Under the pieces are notes generated by a model. The model searched no databases and was not told where the DNA came from. It saw only the letters and a list, made by a program, of their open reading frames with translations. A program made the translations under genes and the position numbers. A stretch of 33,113 nucleotides of DNA from Rhodospirillaceae bacterium (GTDB lineage Bacteria > Pseudomonadota > Alphaproteobacteria > Rhodospirillales > UBA2165), in assembly GCA_002725625.1 (NCBI GenBank), contig PBQI01000106.1:1-33113 (forward strand), given 5' to 3'. Positions 11,370 through 17,589 of the stretch are shown here, in pieces (positions within the stretch are counted from its first letter, which is position 1; each line of letters begins with the position of its first letter).

Positions 11370-12679
11370 GAGGCGTCTCCCGGGAAATGCTTCTTCAGAC
11401 CCTGCCAGCAGTCGGCGTAATCATCCTGAAGTAGTTCCGTCTCCATGGCGAACTGGGTCGCCCGGTAGTTGAGGCAGGTCTCGAACATGAAGGCCTGGGT
11501 ATTGTCGATATATTCCGGTATCAACGTCACGTTGCTAGCGGCCTCGAAAACATCGCCGTCATTGCCATGGGGCACCATGCAATTGTGCAGGCTGCAGCCG
11601 CCGGGGACAAAGCCCTCCTTGCGGCCGTCATATTCACCCTCGATCAGTCCCATGAATTCGCTCATCACGTTGCGGTGGTACCAAGGTGGCCGGTAAGTAT
11701 TTTCCGCCACCATCCAACGGGGCGGAAAAATAACGAAATCGATGTTGGCTGTACCCGGCGATGTGGTAGGTGAGGTCAGTACGGTAAAGATAGACGGGTC
11801 CGGATGATCGTAGCTGACGGAACCGATCACGTTGTAATCCGCTAGATCGTATTTGTATGGCGCATAGTTGCCATGCCAGGCCACCACATCCAACGGCGAA
11901 TGGCTGATGGGCGCATCCCAGATGTTGCCCTGCATCTTGCAGGTCAGGGTGAAGTCCCCTTCCTTGTCCTCAAAGGCTGCTACAGGCGTTTTGAAATCAC
12001 GCGGGTTGGCCAGACCGTTGGAACCGATGGGACCTAGGCTGGGTATGCGCAGCAGCGCACCAAAATTTTCACAGACATAACCACGGGACGGGCCATCGGG
12101 TAGTTCCACCCTAAATTTAATACCCCGTTGAATAACGGCGATCTCGTTGGGAGCGATCTCGATAAAACCCATCTCCGTATGGAGGTGCAGCCTGCCTTGT
12201 TGAGGCACGAACAGCATCTCGCCATCGACATTGTAGAAATATCGGTCTGCCATGGATTTGTTGCAGGCATAAACATGAGCCGCCAAACCGGACCCGGTCG
12301 TGGCGTCCCCGGCGCCCGCCATGGTGACCAGACCGTCAATAAAATCGGATGGCTTATCGGGCATAGGCAGCGGGTCCCAGCGCTGCTGGTTGGGGGTGAT
12401 AGGCTGTCCATCGAAAGGCGCGCCCCGGATGAGGCCGCTGTCACCCGGCACGAACCGGTCATGCACTACGGAAGGCCGAATTCGGTAGAGCCAACTCCGC
12501 CGGTTGACTTCCCGAGGGGCGGTAAAAGCCGTCCCTGTCAGTTGTTCGGCATAGAGTCCCAAAAGTGCTTTTTGCGGTGAATTGCCACGGGCCGGTAAGG
12601 CGCCTTCAGCAGCTTCTGTCGCCAGTTCGTTGCCGAACCCGGTCTGGTATTTCTGATCTGTCTTAACTGTCGATTTCAT
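11366..12679 (-). CDS. hmgA: homogentisate 1,2-dioxygenase
   Basis: 437 residues, normal for the family. It opens homogentisate to maleylacetoacetate using Fe(II) and O2. Landmarks are [13 protein letters not shown] at the N-terminus, the segment [11 protein letters not shown], and the iron ligands in PPWYHRN (H335), SEFMG (E341) and MVPHGND (H371), which fall at the same numbers as in the human enzyme. It is the first gene of the minus-strand operon hmgA-fahA-molybdoenzyme and is divergent from a MarR regulator, with operator-like repeats 135-188 bases upstream of its ATG. A weak CAGGGAA site precedes the ATG. No maiA (maleylacetoacetate isomerase) or hppD gene is adjacent. Confidence 0.98.
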
Positions 12680-12813
12680 CTGACTGTGTTCCCTGAGCGT
12701 TAGAAATCCATTTGCGAATAAATATTACTAAATTTATCTCAAGTTAAGACTGGTTTATGGAAAAATGATCTCTTATCAACCGAAATTTTCATCGGAGGCC
12801 TTTTATATTTGCC

Positions 12814-12839
12814 ATATTAGTTTCATTTGCAACTAATAT
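12814..12839. promoter_or_regulatory. MarR-type operator 1 in the hmgA-marR gap
   Basis: A perfect inverted repeat, ATATTAGTT and AACTAATAT, with an 8-base spacer TCATTTGC. It lies between the divergent hmgA and MarR genes, 80-105 bases before the MarR ATG. A similar element follows with centres 28 bp apart. By position it is the likely autoregulatory and hmgA-control site of the MarR protein. Confidence 0.7.
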
Positions 12840-12843
12840 CAAT

Positions 12844-12867
12844 GATAATTTCATTTGAAACCAATAT
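12844..12867. promoter_or_regulatory. MarR-type operator 2 in the hmgA-marR gap
   Basis: An imperfect copy of operator 1. The core TTTCATTTGAAA at 12849-12860 is itself an inverted repeat (TTTCA and TGAAA), flanked by GATAA on the left and CCAATAT on the right. It is 52-75 bases before the MarR start. Confidence 0.6.
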
Positions 12868-12918
12868 ACGTTATTATGTGTAGACGAGCTTTTACTGACC
12901 AATCGGCGGCGGATAAGG

Positions 12919-13401
12919 ATGCAAAAAGTTCTGGGAATCAAAAAAAATGGCGACGGAAAAGCCCCGGACGCATTGAATCTACGGGATTTTCTCCCCTACC
13001 GTCTGGCCACATTGGCCAAGGAAATATCCACGTCATTCGCCATAACCTATGAGGCCCGATTCGGCATTACCATCCCCCAATGGCGGGTAATGTCGACCTT
13101 GGGTAATTTTCCCAACTGCTCGGCGTCACACGTGGCCGAATACGCCAACCTGGATAAAGTGCAGGTGAGCCGCGCCGTCTCCGGTCTGGTGGAAATGGGG
13201 TATGTCACCCGCAGCCTGGATGACCGCGACCGCCGCAACTCGGTTCTCAGACTTTCCGCCAAAGGCCAGGAAATCTACCAGCAGATCATCCCCGTCGCCC
13301 GCGACTTCGAAGCCCGCTTTACGGAAGTGCTGACCAGCGAAGAAAATGCCCAACTGGACATTCTTCTCGCCAGACTGATGAAAAAGGCCAAAAGACGTTA
13401 A
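12919..13401 (+). CDS. MarR-family transcriptional regulator of the homogentisate operon
   Basis: 160 residues with the MarR winged helix: FGITIPQWRVMSTLGNF (helix-turn-helix entry), SASHVAEYANLDKVQVSRAVSGLVEMG (recognition helix) and the wing DDRDRRNSVLRLSAKGQEIY. Helices at both ends would form the dimer and ligand pocket. It is divergent from hmgA, matching the usual arrangement of HmgR-type repressors that release DNA when bound by an aromatic intermediate; the ligand here is unknown. The ATG at 12919 has only a weak AAGG immediately before it. An earlier non-ATG start cannot be excluded because the frame is open upstream. The 3' end overlaps a small minus-strand frame. Confidence 0.93.
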   Translation: MQKVLGIKKNGDGKAPDALNLRDFLPYRLATLAKEISTSFAITYEARFGITIPQWRVMSTLGNFPNCSASHVAEYANLDKVQVSRAVSGLVEMGYVTRSLDDRDRRNSVLRLSAKGQEIYQQIIPVARDFEARFTEVLTSEENAQLDILLARLMKKAKRR

Positions 13402-13508
13402 AGAAACTGGCGGTGCACCACCATACCCAACTGCACAAAGCCATAGGTGATCATTCCGAAAATAACGGCGTACAGTACAACTTTGAGATGGGTCTTGAGG
13501 CGCTCCAT
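13398..13508 (-). CDS. possible small single-pass membrane protein
   Basis: A 36-residue frame beginning MERLKTHLK and followed by one clear hydrophobic helix (VVLYAVIFGMITYGFVQLGMVV), with a basic end HRQFL. The frame stays open upstream to about 13619 through a GTG, which would add a second hydrophobic patch. It is tail-to-tail with the MarR gene, overlapping by 3 bases. No good ribosome-binding site is visible before the ATG. The regular hydrophobic helix and positive N-terminus favour a real short membrane protein, but chance is possible. I do not recognise a family. Confidence 0.35.
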   Translation of the reverse strand: MERLKTHLKVVLYAVIFGMITYGFVQLGMVVHRQFL

Positions 13509-13680
13509 GGTGGGAGAGTAACGGAAAAGGCGAAAGATGAAAGCCCGCGGGGTAGGAGAAGGCTTTCTCACACGTACGCACAAAACGAAGAGTACAAAAA
13601 CCCAGCATTTACCGTGCACCTAAAAATGCCTGCTGTTTGTCCAATTCTATTGCAGCAAAATCTCTTTGGTACGGCTTTCA

Positions 13681-14427
13681 TTATGAAATCAAAATCATCA
13701 GGCTGATGGCGATGAGCATCCAATAAATGATTATTCGGAAGGCCTGCGCGGGTATGATGTTGAACAGACGCGCGCCGGCCCAAACGCTGGCCATGTAGGG
13801 CAGCACCAACACGGCGACGTTGATGAGAACTTTCTTGGATACCGCGTCGGCCATCAACATGGAGACCAGGACCGTTAATCCCATCATCGTCGTGATGATG
13901 GCGATGTTTGCCCGATGCTCTTTCGCGGTACCAGGTAGCGACATCAGATACAACACCAAAGGTGGCCCACCCACACCGGCGACACCGCTAACGGTGCCGC
14001 CGATGGCGCCGGTAATAAATCCAGGAATAAAGCCGCGCGGGCCTTTGTAAGTCCACCCCATCAGGCTGACGACCGTCACAAAAATAACAGCAGCAGCGAT
14101 AATTTTTTTCACGATTTCGGGGTCCAGGGTAATTAGTAAGACTGTCCCAACCGGCGTAAAACAAAGTCCCGCCACGATCATCGGCCGAACGTCGCGCCAA
14201 CTTACCAAAGGTATCGCCGGTATGGTGATTTGTATGGAGGCGAATATGCCCAACCCGACAACGGAAGCGATAGCTTCAACCGGGCCCCATAGTAGCGCCA
14301 ACAGCGGCACCATGACCAAACCGGACGCGAACCCCGTAAAGCCACGGATCACGCCGCCTGCAAATATGATCAGCAGCGCATATACATATTCAAGGGTCAG
14401 AGAATCCACGGACGACAGTACTTTCAC
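13681..14427 (-). CDS. TauE/SafE-family sulfite/organic anion exporter (copy 1)
   Basis: 248 residues, almost entirely hydrophobic with about eight membrane segments. It has the family's duplicated half: an N-terminal RGFTGFASGLVMVPLLALL and a central ITGAIGGTVSGVAGVGGPPLVLYL. TauE/SafE proteins move sulfite, sulfonates or other small organic anions across the inner membrane; the substrate here is unknown. It is the downstream member of a tandem pair (copy 2 at 14551-15279) with an exact 870 bp period. The central part is nearly identical between copies while the rest has diverged. No transport partner genes are adjacent; the nearby aromatic genes make an aromatic-acid or sulfonate export role possible but unproven. 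Confidence 0.9.
   Translation of the reverse strand: MKVLSSVDSLTLEYVYALLIIFAGGVIRGFTGFASGLVMVPLLALLWGPVEAIASVVGLGIFASIQITIPAIPLVSWRDVRPMIVAGLCFTPVGTVLLITLDPEIVKKIIAAAVIFVTVVSLMGWTYKGPRGFIPGFITGAIGGTVSGVAGVGGPPLVLYLMSLPGTAKEHRANIAIITTMMGLTVLVSMLMADAVSKKVLINVAVLVLPYMASVWAGARLFNIIPAQAFRIIIYWMLIAISLMILIS
13866..14049. repeat. near-identical block shared by tandem exporter genes (copy 1)
   Basis: Aligned without gaps at an offset of 870 bases to 14736-14919, I count 6 differences in 184 bases (about 97% identity). Flanking coding sequence diverges sharply: past 14049 many positions differ. It covers the ITGAIGGT and GVGGPPLVLYLMSL region. The sharp edges suggest gene conversion. Confidence 0.9.
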
Positions 14428-14550
14428 GGATTGGAAAAACTGTCATTGTAGATGGTGCCGCTGGACTCACAACCGGATTCAGGTAACCGTTGTGCTATCC
14501 GCAACCGGCCATAAAAACCAGCGCACCGGCAATACAAAGACGCAAAGCCC

Positions 14551-15279
14551 TCACGATATCAAAATCATCAAACTTATAACGACGAGCATCCAAAGGATAA
14601 TCAATCGGAATGCCCTTTGCGGGAGGATTAAGAAGAGCCGCGTCCCGACCCAAACACTGGCCATAAAGGGAAAAGCCAATACGGCAACGCGAATAAGCGC
14701 TTCGGTAGTTATAACATCTGCAACCAGCATCGACGCCAGGACCGTTAATCCCATCATCGTCGTGATGATGGCGATGTTTGCCCGATGCTCTTTCGCGGTA
14801 CCAGCTAGCGACATCAGATACAATACCAAAGGTGGCCCACCCACACCGGCGACACCGTTAACGGTACCGCCGATGGCGCCGGTAATAAATCCAGGAATAA
14901 AGCCGCTCGGACCTTTGTACTGCCATCCCAAAATGCTGATGACGGTAATGAACAGCACCGCAACGGCAATGATTTTTTTGATCAGCATAGGGTCCAACGC
15001 CACCAGCAGCGCCGTTCCAATCGGCGTAAAGCAGAAACCCGCCAGGATCATCGGTCTCACCGCACGCCAATTAACGATGGGAAGCACCGGGACCGTGATC
15101 TGTAGGGAGGCAAGAAAGGTCAAACCCACCATAATGGTAATAGCCTGCAAAGGCCCCCAGAGGAGCGTCAACAGCGGCACTATTATCAATCCGGACGCGA
15201 AACCGGTAAAACCGTGCACCACGCCAGCGGCGGAAATGATAAGCAAAGCGTACAGATAATCTAAAGTAAGGAATTCCAC
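14551..15279 (-). CDS. TauE/SafE-family sulfite/organic anion exporter (copy 2)
   Basis: 242 residues with the same fold as copy 1 (VHGFTGFASGLIIVPLLTLL, then ITGAIGGTVNGVAGVGGPPLVLYLMSL). It apparently starts with GTG at 15277-15279, giving MEFLTLDYLYALL; copy 1 has an ATG 18 bases further out in the aligned sequence (MKVLSSVDSLTLEYVY). It is the upstream gene of the pair, 123 bp before copy 1 on the same strand. Short identical words upstream of both genes (CATTGTAGATG and ACAACC, again 870 bases apart) show the duplication included the 5' region. The substrate is unknown, and whether both copies are functional cannot be judged; both are fully open. Confidence 0.9.
   Translation of the reverse strand: MEFLTLDYLYALLIISAAGVVHGFTGFASGLIIVPLLTLLWGPLQAITIMVGLTFLASLQITVPVLPIVNWRAVRPMILAGFCFTPIGTALLVALDPMLIKKIIAVAVLFITVISILGWQYKGPSGFIPGFITGAIGGTVNGVAGVGGPPLVLYLMSLAGTAKEHRANIAIITTMMGLTVLASMLVADVITTEALIRVAVLAFPFMASVWVGTRLFLILPQRAFRLIILWMLVVISLMILIS
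14736..14919. repeat. near-identical block shared by tandem exporter genes (copy 2)
   Basis: Partner of 13866-14049, offset exactly 870 bases. See that entry for the count of differences. Confidence 0.9.
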
Positions 15280-15507
15280 TCTGGGGCCAAACCTATGGAA
15301 ATAATTTATAAGCCATTGTAGATGAAGAAAACGGGCTTACAACCAGTATGGGATCAATGACTTACTCTCGTTTGTGGCTCTATTTGGCTTCAGCTTACCA
15401 TTCTTGGCGTCATCGACCAGACAATGCAGAACAACCGCCAGATAGATAACCTTTGCATAGCATAGTGCCAATTTCTCACTGCTCAGCGGCACCGATATTT
15501 CGGTTTC
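15280..15507. other. intergenic, duplicated 5' leader of exporter copy 2
   Basis: Contains CATTGTAGATG at 15314 and ACAACC nearby, matching the region before exporter copy 1 at the same 870-base offset. Nothing else recognisable is seen up to the small frame ending at 15508. Confidence 0.5.
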
Positions 15508-15747
15508 TCAAAACTTGATGAAAGACTGCCAGTTACCTTTATACCTGGACCGGGCCAGGGTGATCCGGCCACCGTGATTTAGATCACCCCACCACGCTAC
15601 ATCAGGCTCCAATTTGCAGTTGCAGACTTCTTCCTTAACGGCGGCGATTTTAAGATCAAGATCTGTCACCGATGTGGACAAGCATTTTGCCACGGCAACG
15701 CGTTCGTTAATTTTTTGAGCGTATTCGGCCAATTGCGAACCCTTCAT
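15508..15747 (-). CDS. hypothetical protein, possibly part of a stop-interrupted gene
   Basis: 79 residues starting MKGSQLAEYAQKINERVAVA and ending RYKGNWQSFIKF. The amphipathic N-terminal helix and later Cys pair (VCNCKL) look protein-like rather than random. I recognise no family. In the same frame, just upstream on the minus strand, 14 codons run back to a TAA (15790-15792). Beyond that lie 36 more open codons (15793-15900) containing KYKGDWYAYVWKW, which echoes the RYKGNW at this protein's end. The gene may therefore once have been longer. No strong ribosome site precedes the ATG (GGGGC about 10 bases away). Confidence 0.4.
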   Translation of the reverse strand: MKGSQLAEYAQKINERVAVAKCLSTSVTDLDLKIAAVKEEVCNCKLEPDVAWWGDLNHGGRITLARSRYKGNWQSFIKF

Positions 15748-16202
15748 TTTTATGCCCCGGAACTTCTTGACCGGAGTTTTCTTCGGCTTTTAAAGGTGAA
15801 CAACCTTTTTCCGATGGCTTTGCCATTTCCAGACATAGGCATACCAGTCGCCTTTGTATTTAGTATGTACGTAGGCGGAAATTTTATCATGGACCTTCGA
15901 TCATCAGGCGACGTCGGGCAAAGTCATCCACCGATCAATCAAACCTCTACCCCTACCAAATGGGACTGTGGCAATGGCTTGAGTATGGAGGTGGAATAGG
16001 CCGGAAATTGGGCTAAAGTCATCGTCGCCGGGAAAAGATAGCGCCTGCCAAGAGCACGTTCGGATGCCCGGTATTCCTCAGATGGCCGCGACGTGTGGAG
16101 TACCAGAACAAACTACGCTGGACCGATCTTAGCGCGCCGTCGCGCACCTGCCCGCGAATAGGCAATTAGTTTAAATCGCCAACGCCAATTTTAGCGGAAT
16201 TC
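15748..16202. other. intergenic with probable decayed coding sequence
   Basis: 15793-15900 on the minus strand is open and looks protein-coding (see the preceding small gene). From 15901 to 16202 there are only short open stretches in changing frames. I see no transposase, RNA or clear terminator. Confidence 0.35.
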
Positions 16203-17027
16203 TTAACTCAATGCCGATGAGTAGTCAGCTTTGTAAGCGTCCAATCGTTTCCGTGCTGCATCTATGATGCTGGCGCCGGCGCTGGCGTAAAGCTTCTGTT
16301 CTTCCGCTGGCGCACCGACGTTGCCTTCGGCGAAGCTTGGCCGTGCCGTAATACGTTCCCACCAGGCAATTGTGTTCGGCCGGTTGTCAAACCACAGGCT
16401 TAAAATTCCCATACTGCCGGTACGGGCGATCAGGGGGGCAAAGTTTATTTCCGCCAAACTGAACAGATCGCCCATAAGCCAATCTCTGCCGTCTTCAAGA
16501 GTATGTTCTATCTTATCGAAAATACGCTCCCAGGCGACCAGGGCGCGAATGGCGTAGGGTGAATTAATGCCATCATAAACACAGGATTGCTGGCGAATAG
16601 TGCGGTCGAGCAGGGTCTGACCGGCCCAGTATGCGGCACGGTCCTGATCGCTCATGTTCAATAGGCGGTCGCGAAAGACTGCCGTGAAACTCAAAGATGC
16701 CACAGCCTCGAAGGCAAATTCGTCCACCTCTTTCACCCATTCCCGCATTTGGGCGATTTCGGCGCGGTCAACAGGCTTCAAGGGCGGCTCCGGGTATAGA
16801 TCGTCGATATAGTCGCAGATAATGGAGGATTCGCGGATGATCTTGCCGTCGTGGATTACGGTCGGCACCTGGGCCTTGGGATTGATCGTAATATAATCCG
16901 GATCGAACTGTTCATGCTTGAAGAGATGAACGTGGTGGCGCACCCAATTGTCAACACCCTTTTCCGCCAGGGTCATCAAAACTTTTTCAGCGCAAATGGA
17001 ATCCTCGTAATAATAAACTTCAAGCAT
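16203..17027 (-). CDS. glutathione S-transferase family protein (LigF-like), probable MarR-regulon member
   Basis: 274 residues. Thioredoxin-fold domain with DSICAEKVLMTL near residue 10, QVPTVIHDG and RESSIICDYIDDLYPE, followed by the helical domain (MREWVKEVDEF, RARPSF-like end). It is a paralogue of the GST at 1163-2023 and shares its length and inter-domain pattern (RDRL, QSCV.DGI.SPYA.RA). It has Ala where the paralogue has Ser in the active-site segment, with Cys preserved before it. The ribosome site GGGGAGG is strong. An element like the hmgA-marR operators lies 37-61 bases upstream, so the same MarR may control it. It could serve as the missing maleylacetoacetate isomerase, but its sequence resembles LigF-type beta-etherases more than zeta-class MaiA; the substrate is undetermined. 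Confidence 0.85.
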   Translation of the reverse strand: MLEVYYYEDSICAEKVLMTLAEKGVDNWVRHHVHLFKHEQFDPDYITINPKAQVPTVIHDGKIIRESSIICDYIDDLYPEPPLKPVDRAEIAQMREWVKEVDEFAFEAVASLSFTAVFRDRLLNMSDQDRAAYWAGQTLLDRTIRQQSCVYDGINSPYAIRALVAWERIFDKIEHTLEDGRDWLMGDLFSLAEINFAPLIARTGSMGILSLWFDNRPNTIAWWERITARPSFAEGNVGAPAEEQKLYASAGASIIDAARKRLDAYKADYSSALS

Positions 17028-17047: not shown

Positions 17048-17589
17048 CTAATTTCGCCTCAGAATATTAGTTTCATCTGAAATTAACTGCAATAAAAACG
17101 AACAAGTTTTTAATATCTCGTCCCAATAGGGTCTAGGTCCGAAGCGATCAGCCATGAAATCGACATGGGCGCGGATTTTGGCCGACAGATGGCGTCTATG
17201 GAGTAGACGGCATAGATCGACGAGGCTGTCGTCAAAATCTATATCTACTTTCAGCTCAGGATAAATATCCATGAAGGGCGGGATTGCCGGTGCGATATGG
17301 AGAACGCCGAATGACATGGGGTATTAATTTCAAGCGTTCCGTGCGGCGCCACATGCAAACTGCTGATCTCCAGTTTCACTTCACCGGCCTCGGCAACAAT
17401 GCGCGCCGCCCGTTCGTTAAAAACAGCTCCGATTTCGGTCATATTGAGACGCCGTGTTGTTCGGTTGAGGAGGTGCGCGCCCAGGTGGTTCTCAAGCCTA
17501 GCAATTCGCTTTCTGACAGCTGATTCTGACAATCCCAATTGCCACGCCGCACCGGAAAAACCAGCGGCGGCCCTAAGAGTTCTATAAGC
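17048..17589 (-). pseudogene. LysR-family regulator, decayed
   Basis: Reading from 17589 downward: the helix-turn-helix AAAGFSGAAWQLGLSESAV, then RKRIARLENHLGAHLLNRTTRRL and HGTLEINTP. At about 17318 one base is missing (ACC-CC-ATG), moving the frame to MSFGVLHIAPAIPPFMDIYP and VDIDFDDSLVDL. There (near 17212) the text jumps to LHRRHLSAKIRAHVDFMADR and RFGPRPYWDEIL, which is normally the protein's very end, so roughly 130-150 residues of the effector domain are deleted. The first codons are also lost under the end of the oxidoreductase gene. Intact relatives have about 300 residues. It was probably once the regulator of the adjacent GST. The MarR-type element at 17064-17088 lies over its 3' end. 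Confidence 0.9.
17064..17088. promoter_or_regulatory. third MarR-type operator-like element, before the GST at 16203-17027
   Basis: Begins ATATTAGTTTCAT, identical over 13 bases to operator 1 near hmgA, and continues CTGAAATTAACT. It matches about 20 of 25 positions to that operator by eye, with core TTTCATCTGAAA at 17071-17082. It lies 37-61 bases before the GST ATG. Confidence 0.6.

Follow-up and report, generated by a model that had tools for sequence, protein, structure and literature searches.

Recent gene conversion between two strongly diverged tandem exporter paralogues very probably explains a 184-bp tract of near-identical sequence in the genome of a Rhodospirillaceae bacterium. The window analyzed (33,113 bp) corresponds to an entire contig (C106) in a 3.33 Mb genome made up of 215 contigs, with 78.8% completeness and 5.3% contamination. 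The genes and the tract are located as follows:

13681..14427, minus strand: copy A, a TauE/SafE-family exporter called at 248 aa (PF01925, E 1.1e-25, 91.1 bits)
14551..15279, minus strand: copy B, a TauE/SafE-family exporter (242 aa; PF01925, E 2.9e-23, 83.2 bits)
13866..14049, minus strand: copy A part of the putative gene-conversion tract, encoding residues 127-187 in the 248-aa numbering (six of 184 bp differ)
14736..14919, minus strand: copy B part of the same putative tract, supported likewise by the six differences in 184 bp and by codon statistics and permutation

Both copies exceeded the curated Pfam cut-off for PF01925 (32.6 bits), with matches covering nearly the whole protein length, and were 72% identical to each other as proteins. 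The alignment at an 870-bp offset proposed in the preliminary description was confirmed to be ungapped over the gene, with the stop codons (TAA and TGA) aligned. The open reading frames as quoted differ in length (747 bp for A vs 729 bp for B) because the frame of copy A has an extra GTG 18 nt upstream; its GTG at 14407-14409 is aligned with the GTG at 15277-15279 of copy B, and this pair is probably the common start of both genes, giving copy A 242 aa. A third TauE/SafE-family gene was found on the same contig (22902-23675, plus strand; PF01925, E 7.9e-25) and was not among the matches when the proteins of the genome were searched with copy A.

The tract contains exactly six differences in 184 bp (13935, 13954, 13988, 13996, 14037, and 14041), as previously counted, and flanks described as differing at many positions did so at 183 of the 543 aligned coding bases outside the tract (66% identical), against 6 of 183 bases in the 61 whole codons inside it. 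A maximal-scoring-segment scan recovered the same ends (13866-14049; under the harshest mismatch penalty, 13866-14036), and the tract score was never reached when the aligned columns were shuffled 20,000 times. The longest exact run between the copies was 69 bp (13866-13934), compared with a maximum of 13 bp outside the tract. Codons for the same residue were identical in 52 of 55 cases in the tract vs 43 of 107 outside (Fisher p 1.9e-12), and fourfold residues in 29 of 32 vs 18 of 48 (p 1.8e-6); the high third-position identity reported earlier for the patch was borne out, being 0.95 in the tract and 0.41 outside. The NG86 dS value was 0.063 in the tract vs about 2.3 (saturated) outside, the 3' flank alone giving no dS by this method, and the dN values were 0.023 and 0.241, respectively. 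Protein identity between A and B was 58/61 in the tract vs 117/181 outside. A run of identical same-residue codons as long as that observed did not occur in 100,000 shuffles when one, two or three mismatches were allowed, and occurred in two of 100,000 when none was allowed.

The edges of the tract are abrupt, and copy-specific sequence is retained on both sides: the 60 bp adjoining each edge were at background level (36/60 and 40/60 nucleotides identical), with synonymous identity in 2 of 10 and 4 of 12 codons. These edges bear on the number of events. Repeated conversion since the duplication, i.e., an ongoing local concerted evolution in which the tract never diverged, is a version of the same explanation that we consider unlikely. 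Divergence alone cannot separate it from a single conversion, and recurrent conversion limited to one domain was reported for the mtrA pair of methanogens in the part of that study used here (PMC4632066); however, repeated events with differing ends should give graded edges, so that the abrupt ones count against it. A collapsed or chimeric assembly of reads from the two copies over the patch is very improbable, despite the fragmentation into 215 contigs, since collapse would yield full identity, while the two copies of the tract differ at six positions, of which four are not close to either end (13935-13996), and match exactly over no more than 69 bp in a row. Moreover, compared with the orthologues, three of these differences alter an amino acid, and they are spread over both copies. 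They would have arisen since the conversion, two in copy B (P to A and R to S) and one in copy A (N to S), taking as the older residue the majority among 17 other sequences, in which it was kept in 16, 15, and 16 of 17 cases.

The choice between recent conversion and constraint was made with orthologues. Protein and synonymous identities were compared in 16 sequences, comprising copies A and B and 14 homologues (L003 and L007-L019) selected from a larger set of matches. The excess of protein identity in the tract over the rest of the gene was +0.304 for the A-B pair, whereas the other 119 pairs had a mean of +0.026 (sd 0.066, maximum 0.197); for synonymous identity, the excess was +0.55 vs a mean of +0.012 (maximum 0.276) in the other 119 pairs. 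A set of 19 sequences, from which L003 was removed and to which L048, L049, L051, and L061 were added, was used for the flank and tract trees and the window test; it left out ten other close loci, the contigs of which have the same lengths as contigs included before, as well as eight distant loci (L062-L069). In this set, the best 61-codon window exceeded the rest by 0.304 in the A-B pair vs a mean of 0.105 and a maximum of 0.167 in the 170 other pairs. Column conservation, calculated without L018 and L019 (both kept in the trees and window test), was 0.677 in the tract vs 0.659 elsewhere, and 79 of 178 windows of equal length were better conserved than the tract in the orthologue columns. Equally low divergence of the patch among orthologues, named in the preliminary description as the sign of DNA-level constraint, was thus looked for and not found, and its preference for recent conversion over purifying selection was upheld by the synonymous jump in the tract together with the lack of an orthologue excess.

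Preservation of the patch by purifying selection on the GVGGPPLV core, or by a constraint on DNA or RNA (an antisense gene or structured RNA), is accordingly scarcely credible: the motif does lie within the tract, where protein identity is also higher, and a long antisense open reading frame (14222-15259, plus strand) crosses copy B, but the single-copy orthologues have no excess in the tract at the protein or synonymous level, its conservation is of middle rank, and the helix at residues 168-192 is weakly conserved among orthologues (0.51), yet differs between A and B in only 2 of 25 residues. An Rfam search of positions 12500-17000 gave nothing at the gathering score, and a structured RNA in the patch was rejected.

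Recent conversion also agrees with the phylogenetic data. In the 19-sequence flank tree, copies A and B grouped as sisters with 94% bootstrap support, branch lengths of 0.124 (A) and 0.377 (B), and a stem of 0.20. The same sister grouping was obtained in the tract tree, because the duplication is lineage-specific, with strongly different branch lengths (tips of 0.017 for A and 0.035 for B). The tract had a log-likelihood of -1396.0 when forced onto the scaled flank tree and of about -1378 when recent identity was allowed, so that the flank tree cost about 18 units. Both directions of transfer were nearly equal, with values of -1378.6/-1378.5 for A as donor and -1378.1/-1378.0 for B as donor (difference about 0.5) and A being better in 24 of 60 column bootstraps. 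At E <= 1e-60, 12 of 317 genomes of the order had a match; 11 contained one copy and this genome alone two. No second genome with both copies was found among 24 genomes of the family or the 317 of the order (this genome counted in each), so that, within this sampling, the duplication is confined to this lineage, the genome being the sole member of its genus in the sample. Scanning of named genomes with copy B alone as the query returned nothing, and with the alignment as the query it returned 22 loci; according to tblastn of A and B against these, 14 close loci (L048-L061) carry one copy each within the stretch covered. The duplication is old, as the synonymous sites are saturated, and the conversion is much younger.

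From these results, we infer the following order of events. One TSUP (TauE/SafE) exporter gene would have been duplicated in tandem together with its promoter, as a unit of about 870 bp, in this lineage. The copies would then have diverged to about 65% protein identity and synonymous saturation, copy B evolving at about three times the rate of copy A. At a much later stage, homologous recombination, probably in a single non-reciprocal event, would have copied about 184 bp from one copy to the other without exchange of the flanks, so that residues 127-187 were re-homogenised and the six differences have accrued since.

The alignment was previously stated to continue through the upstream leader. 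This held for one 31-bp block, which matched at the 870-bp offset in 22 of 31 positions, a level equalled at one of the 66,002 further positions compared within the window (this one being presumably the block's own 870-bp partner). On either side of the block, the leader was at chance level, with 8 of 34 matches for 14410-14443 and 20 of 76 for 14475-14550. The two blocks are:

14444..14474, minus strand: leader block of copy A with promoter-like TTGTGA-16-TACAAT at 14472-14445 (offset match and consensus scan)
15314..15344, minus strand: leader block of copy B with promoter-like TTGTAA-16-TACAAT at 15342-15315 (offset match and consensus scan)

The element TTGTRA-16 nt-TACAAT is present in both leaders and is promoter-like by consensus match alone; in the 2.3 kb scanned, five such consensus sites were found vs 2.9 expected. 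Each gene may be expressed from its own promoter. A 19-codon frame is present at 14495-14554 (minus strand), the GTG of which overlaps the stop codon of copy B; it resembles a lipoprotein signal ending in MAGCG and may be a chance frame or a remnant.

Genes near the two copies encode homogentisate dioxygenase, fumarylacetoacetase, a MarR-type regulator, a molybdopterin enzyme, UbiD, and cytochrome P450, and the neighbourhood is one of aromatic catabolism. One more gene is relevant to the substrate:

16203..17027, minus strand: glutathione S-transferase (GST)-family gene upstream of copy B, in the same direction (Pfam GST_N/GST_C; synteny)

Its homologue precedes the exporter in 5 of the 14 close loci (L053, L054, L055, L058, and L059), with L061 among the 14 having too little upstream sequence to judge, and in L055 and L058, the two loci examined for this, the exporter is followed by another GST-family gene that is distinct from the first. 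The aromatic-catabolism neighbourhood together with the GST genes beside the exporter suggests an anion from glutathione-linked aromatic metabolism as a candidate substrate. Farther upstream, the frame of a LysR-type HTH domain (17251-17538, minus strand) breaks off and overlaps a second open reading frame (17048-17317), and the region 17048-17538 (minus strand) looks like a frameshifted regulator gene. The interval of approximately 0.9 kb that separates copy B from the upstream GST gene (15300-16200) contained no convincing gene; two adjoining open reading frames there in the same frame (15508-15789 and 15337-15507, minus strand) suggest a decayed gene.

The AlphaFold2 model of copy A (mean pLDDT 83.9, pTM 0.81) contains ten helices in two sets of five, and the tract (residues 127-187) covers model helices 133-150, 155-163, and most of 168-192. 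The best solved match of the model was UppP/BacA (5oon), with Z 12.5, rmsd 4.0, 229 of 248 residues aligned, and 8% identity; the Foldseek comparison of the two gave E 0.01. For helical bundles, Z values under about 13 can reflect merely a common arrangement, and the gap to the next unrelated structure (12.5 vs 5.2) speaks for a more specific resemblance of the predicted fold. No convincing solved relative was found by sequence, the one match having E 0.021, and none of the papers returned by a literature search on TauE and BacA connects the two in its title. In UppP, helices 1-2 and 6-7 form re-entrant hairpins at the active site, and the authors of the UppP structure reported that it had no close structural homologue (PMC5861054). 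Given the UppP hairpin of helices 6-7 and the helix order, the tract would carry the second hairpin, as predicted from the collinear full-length alignment and helix order rather than residue by residue. A common UppP-like fold shows no common function. It is conceivable, although quite doubtful, that the tract represents a functional unit, namely the second re-entrant hairpin predicted for a UppP/BacA-like fold (residues 133-163, its turn carrying GVGGPP) together with the greater part of the helix that follows. Both exporters would then have acquired an identical half of the substrate-binding site as the remainder of the pair went on diverging, and selection would have kept the conversion because the two share a substrate but differ in coupling or regulation. 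The UppP-like fold of the exporter model may merit more attention than the conversion itself.

The same bacterial family contains further tandem TSUP pairs (L036-L040), with a spacing of 744-805 bp and about 36-45% protein identity between partners. None of these five pairs had a conversion patch, as the best 180-nt window did not exceed 0.63 and the longest run did not exceed 13, and conversion as a family-wide habit of such pairs was rejected.

Both proteins resemble the TauE/SafE (TSUP) family in matching PF01925 almost in full; the neighbourhood here is one of aromatic and glutathione metabolism and not evidently a sulfonate pathway. A literature search for gene conversion paired with TauE found no paper on the two together. 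As in the concerted evolution of tufA and tufB, paralogues were made alike by recombination within one genome; in the part of that study consulted, homogenisation is of full length and recurs across species, whereas here a short tract is shared by diverged copies (PMC6053082). The mtrA duplicates of methanogens, for which partial gene conversion recurring across whole orders is described in the available part of the report, are similar in that paralogues of one operon are homogenised over part of the gene and differ in the rest; they are unlike the present case, in which conversion is seen in one genome and probably involved one event over 184 bp (PMC4632066). Identity within such a tract says nothing on the age of the duplication. 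The A-B tract adds one more case to a phenomenon that is already known, with the mtrA pairs, as far as that source was used, being a close precedent (PMC4632066), and it provides a clean example of a short conversion tract between far-diverged tandem paralogues, in which the orthologue control separates conversion from selection.
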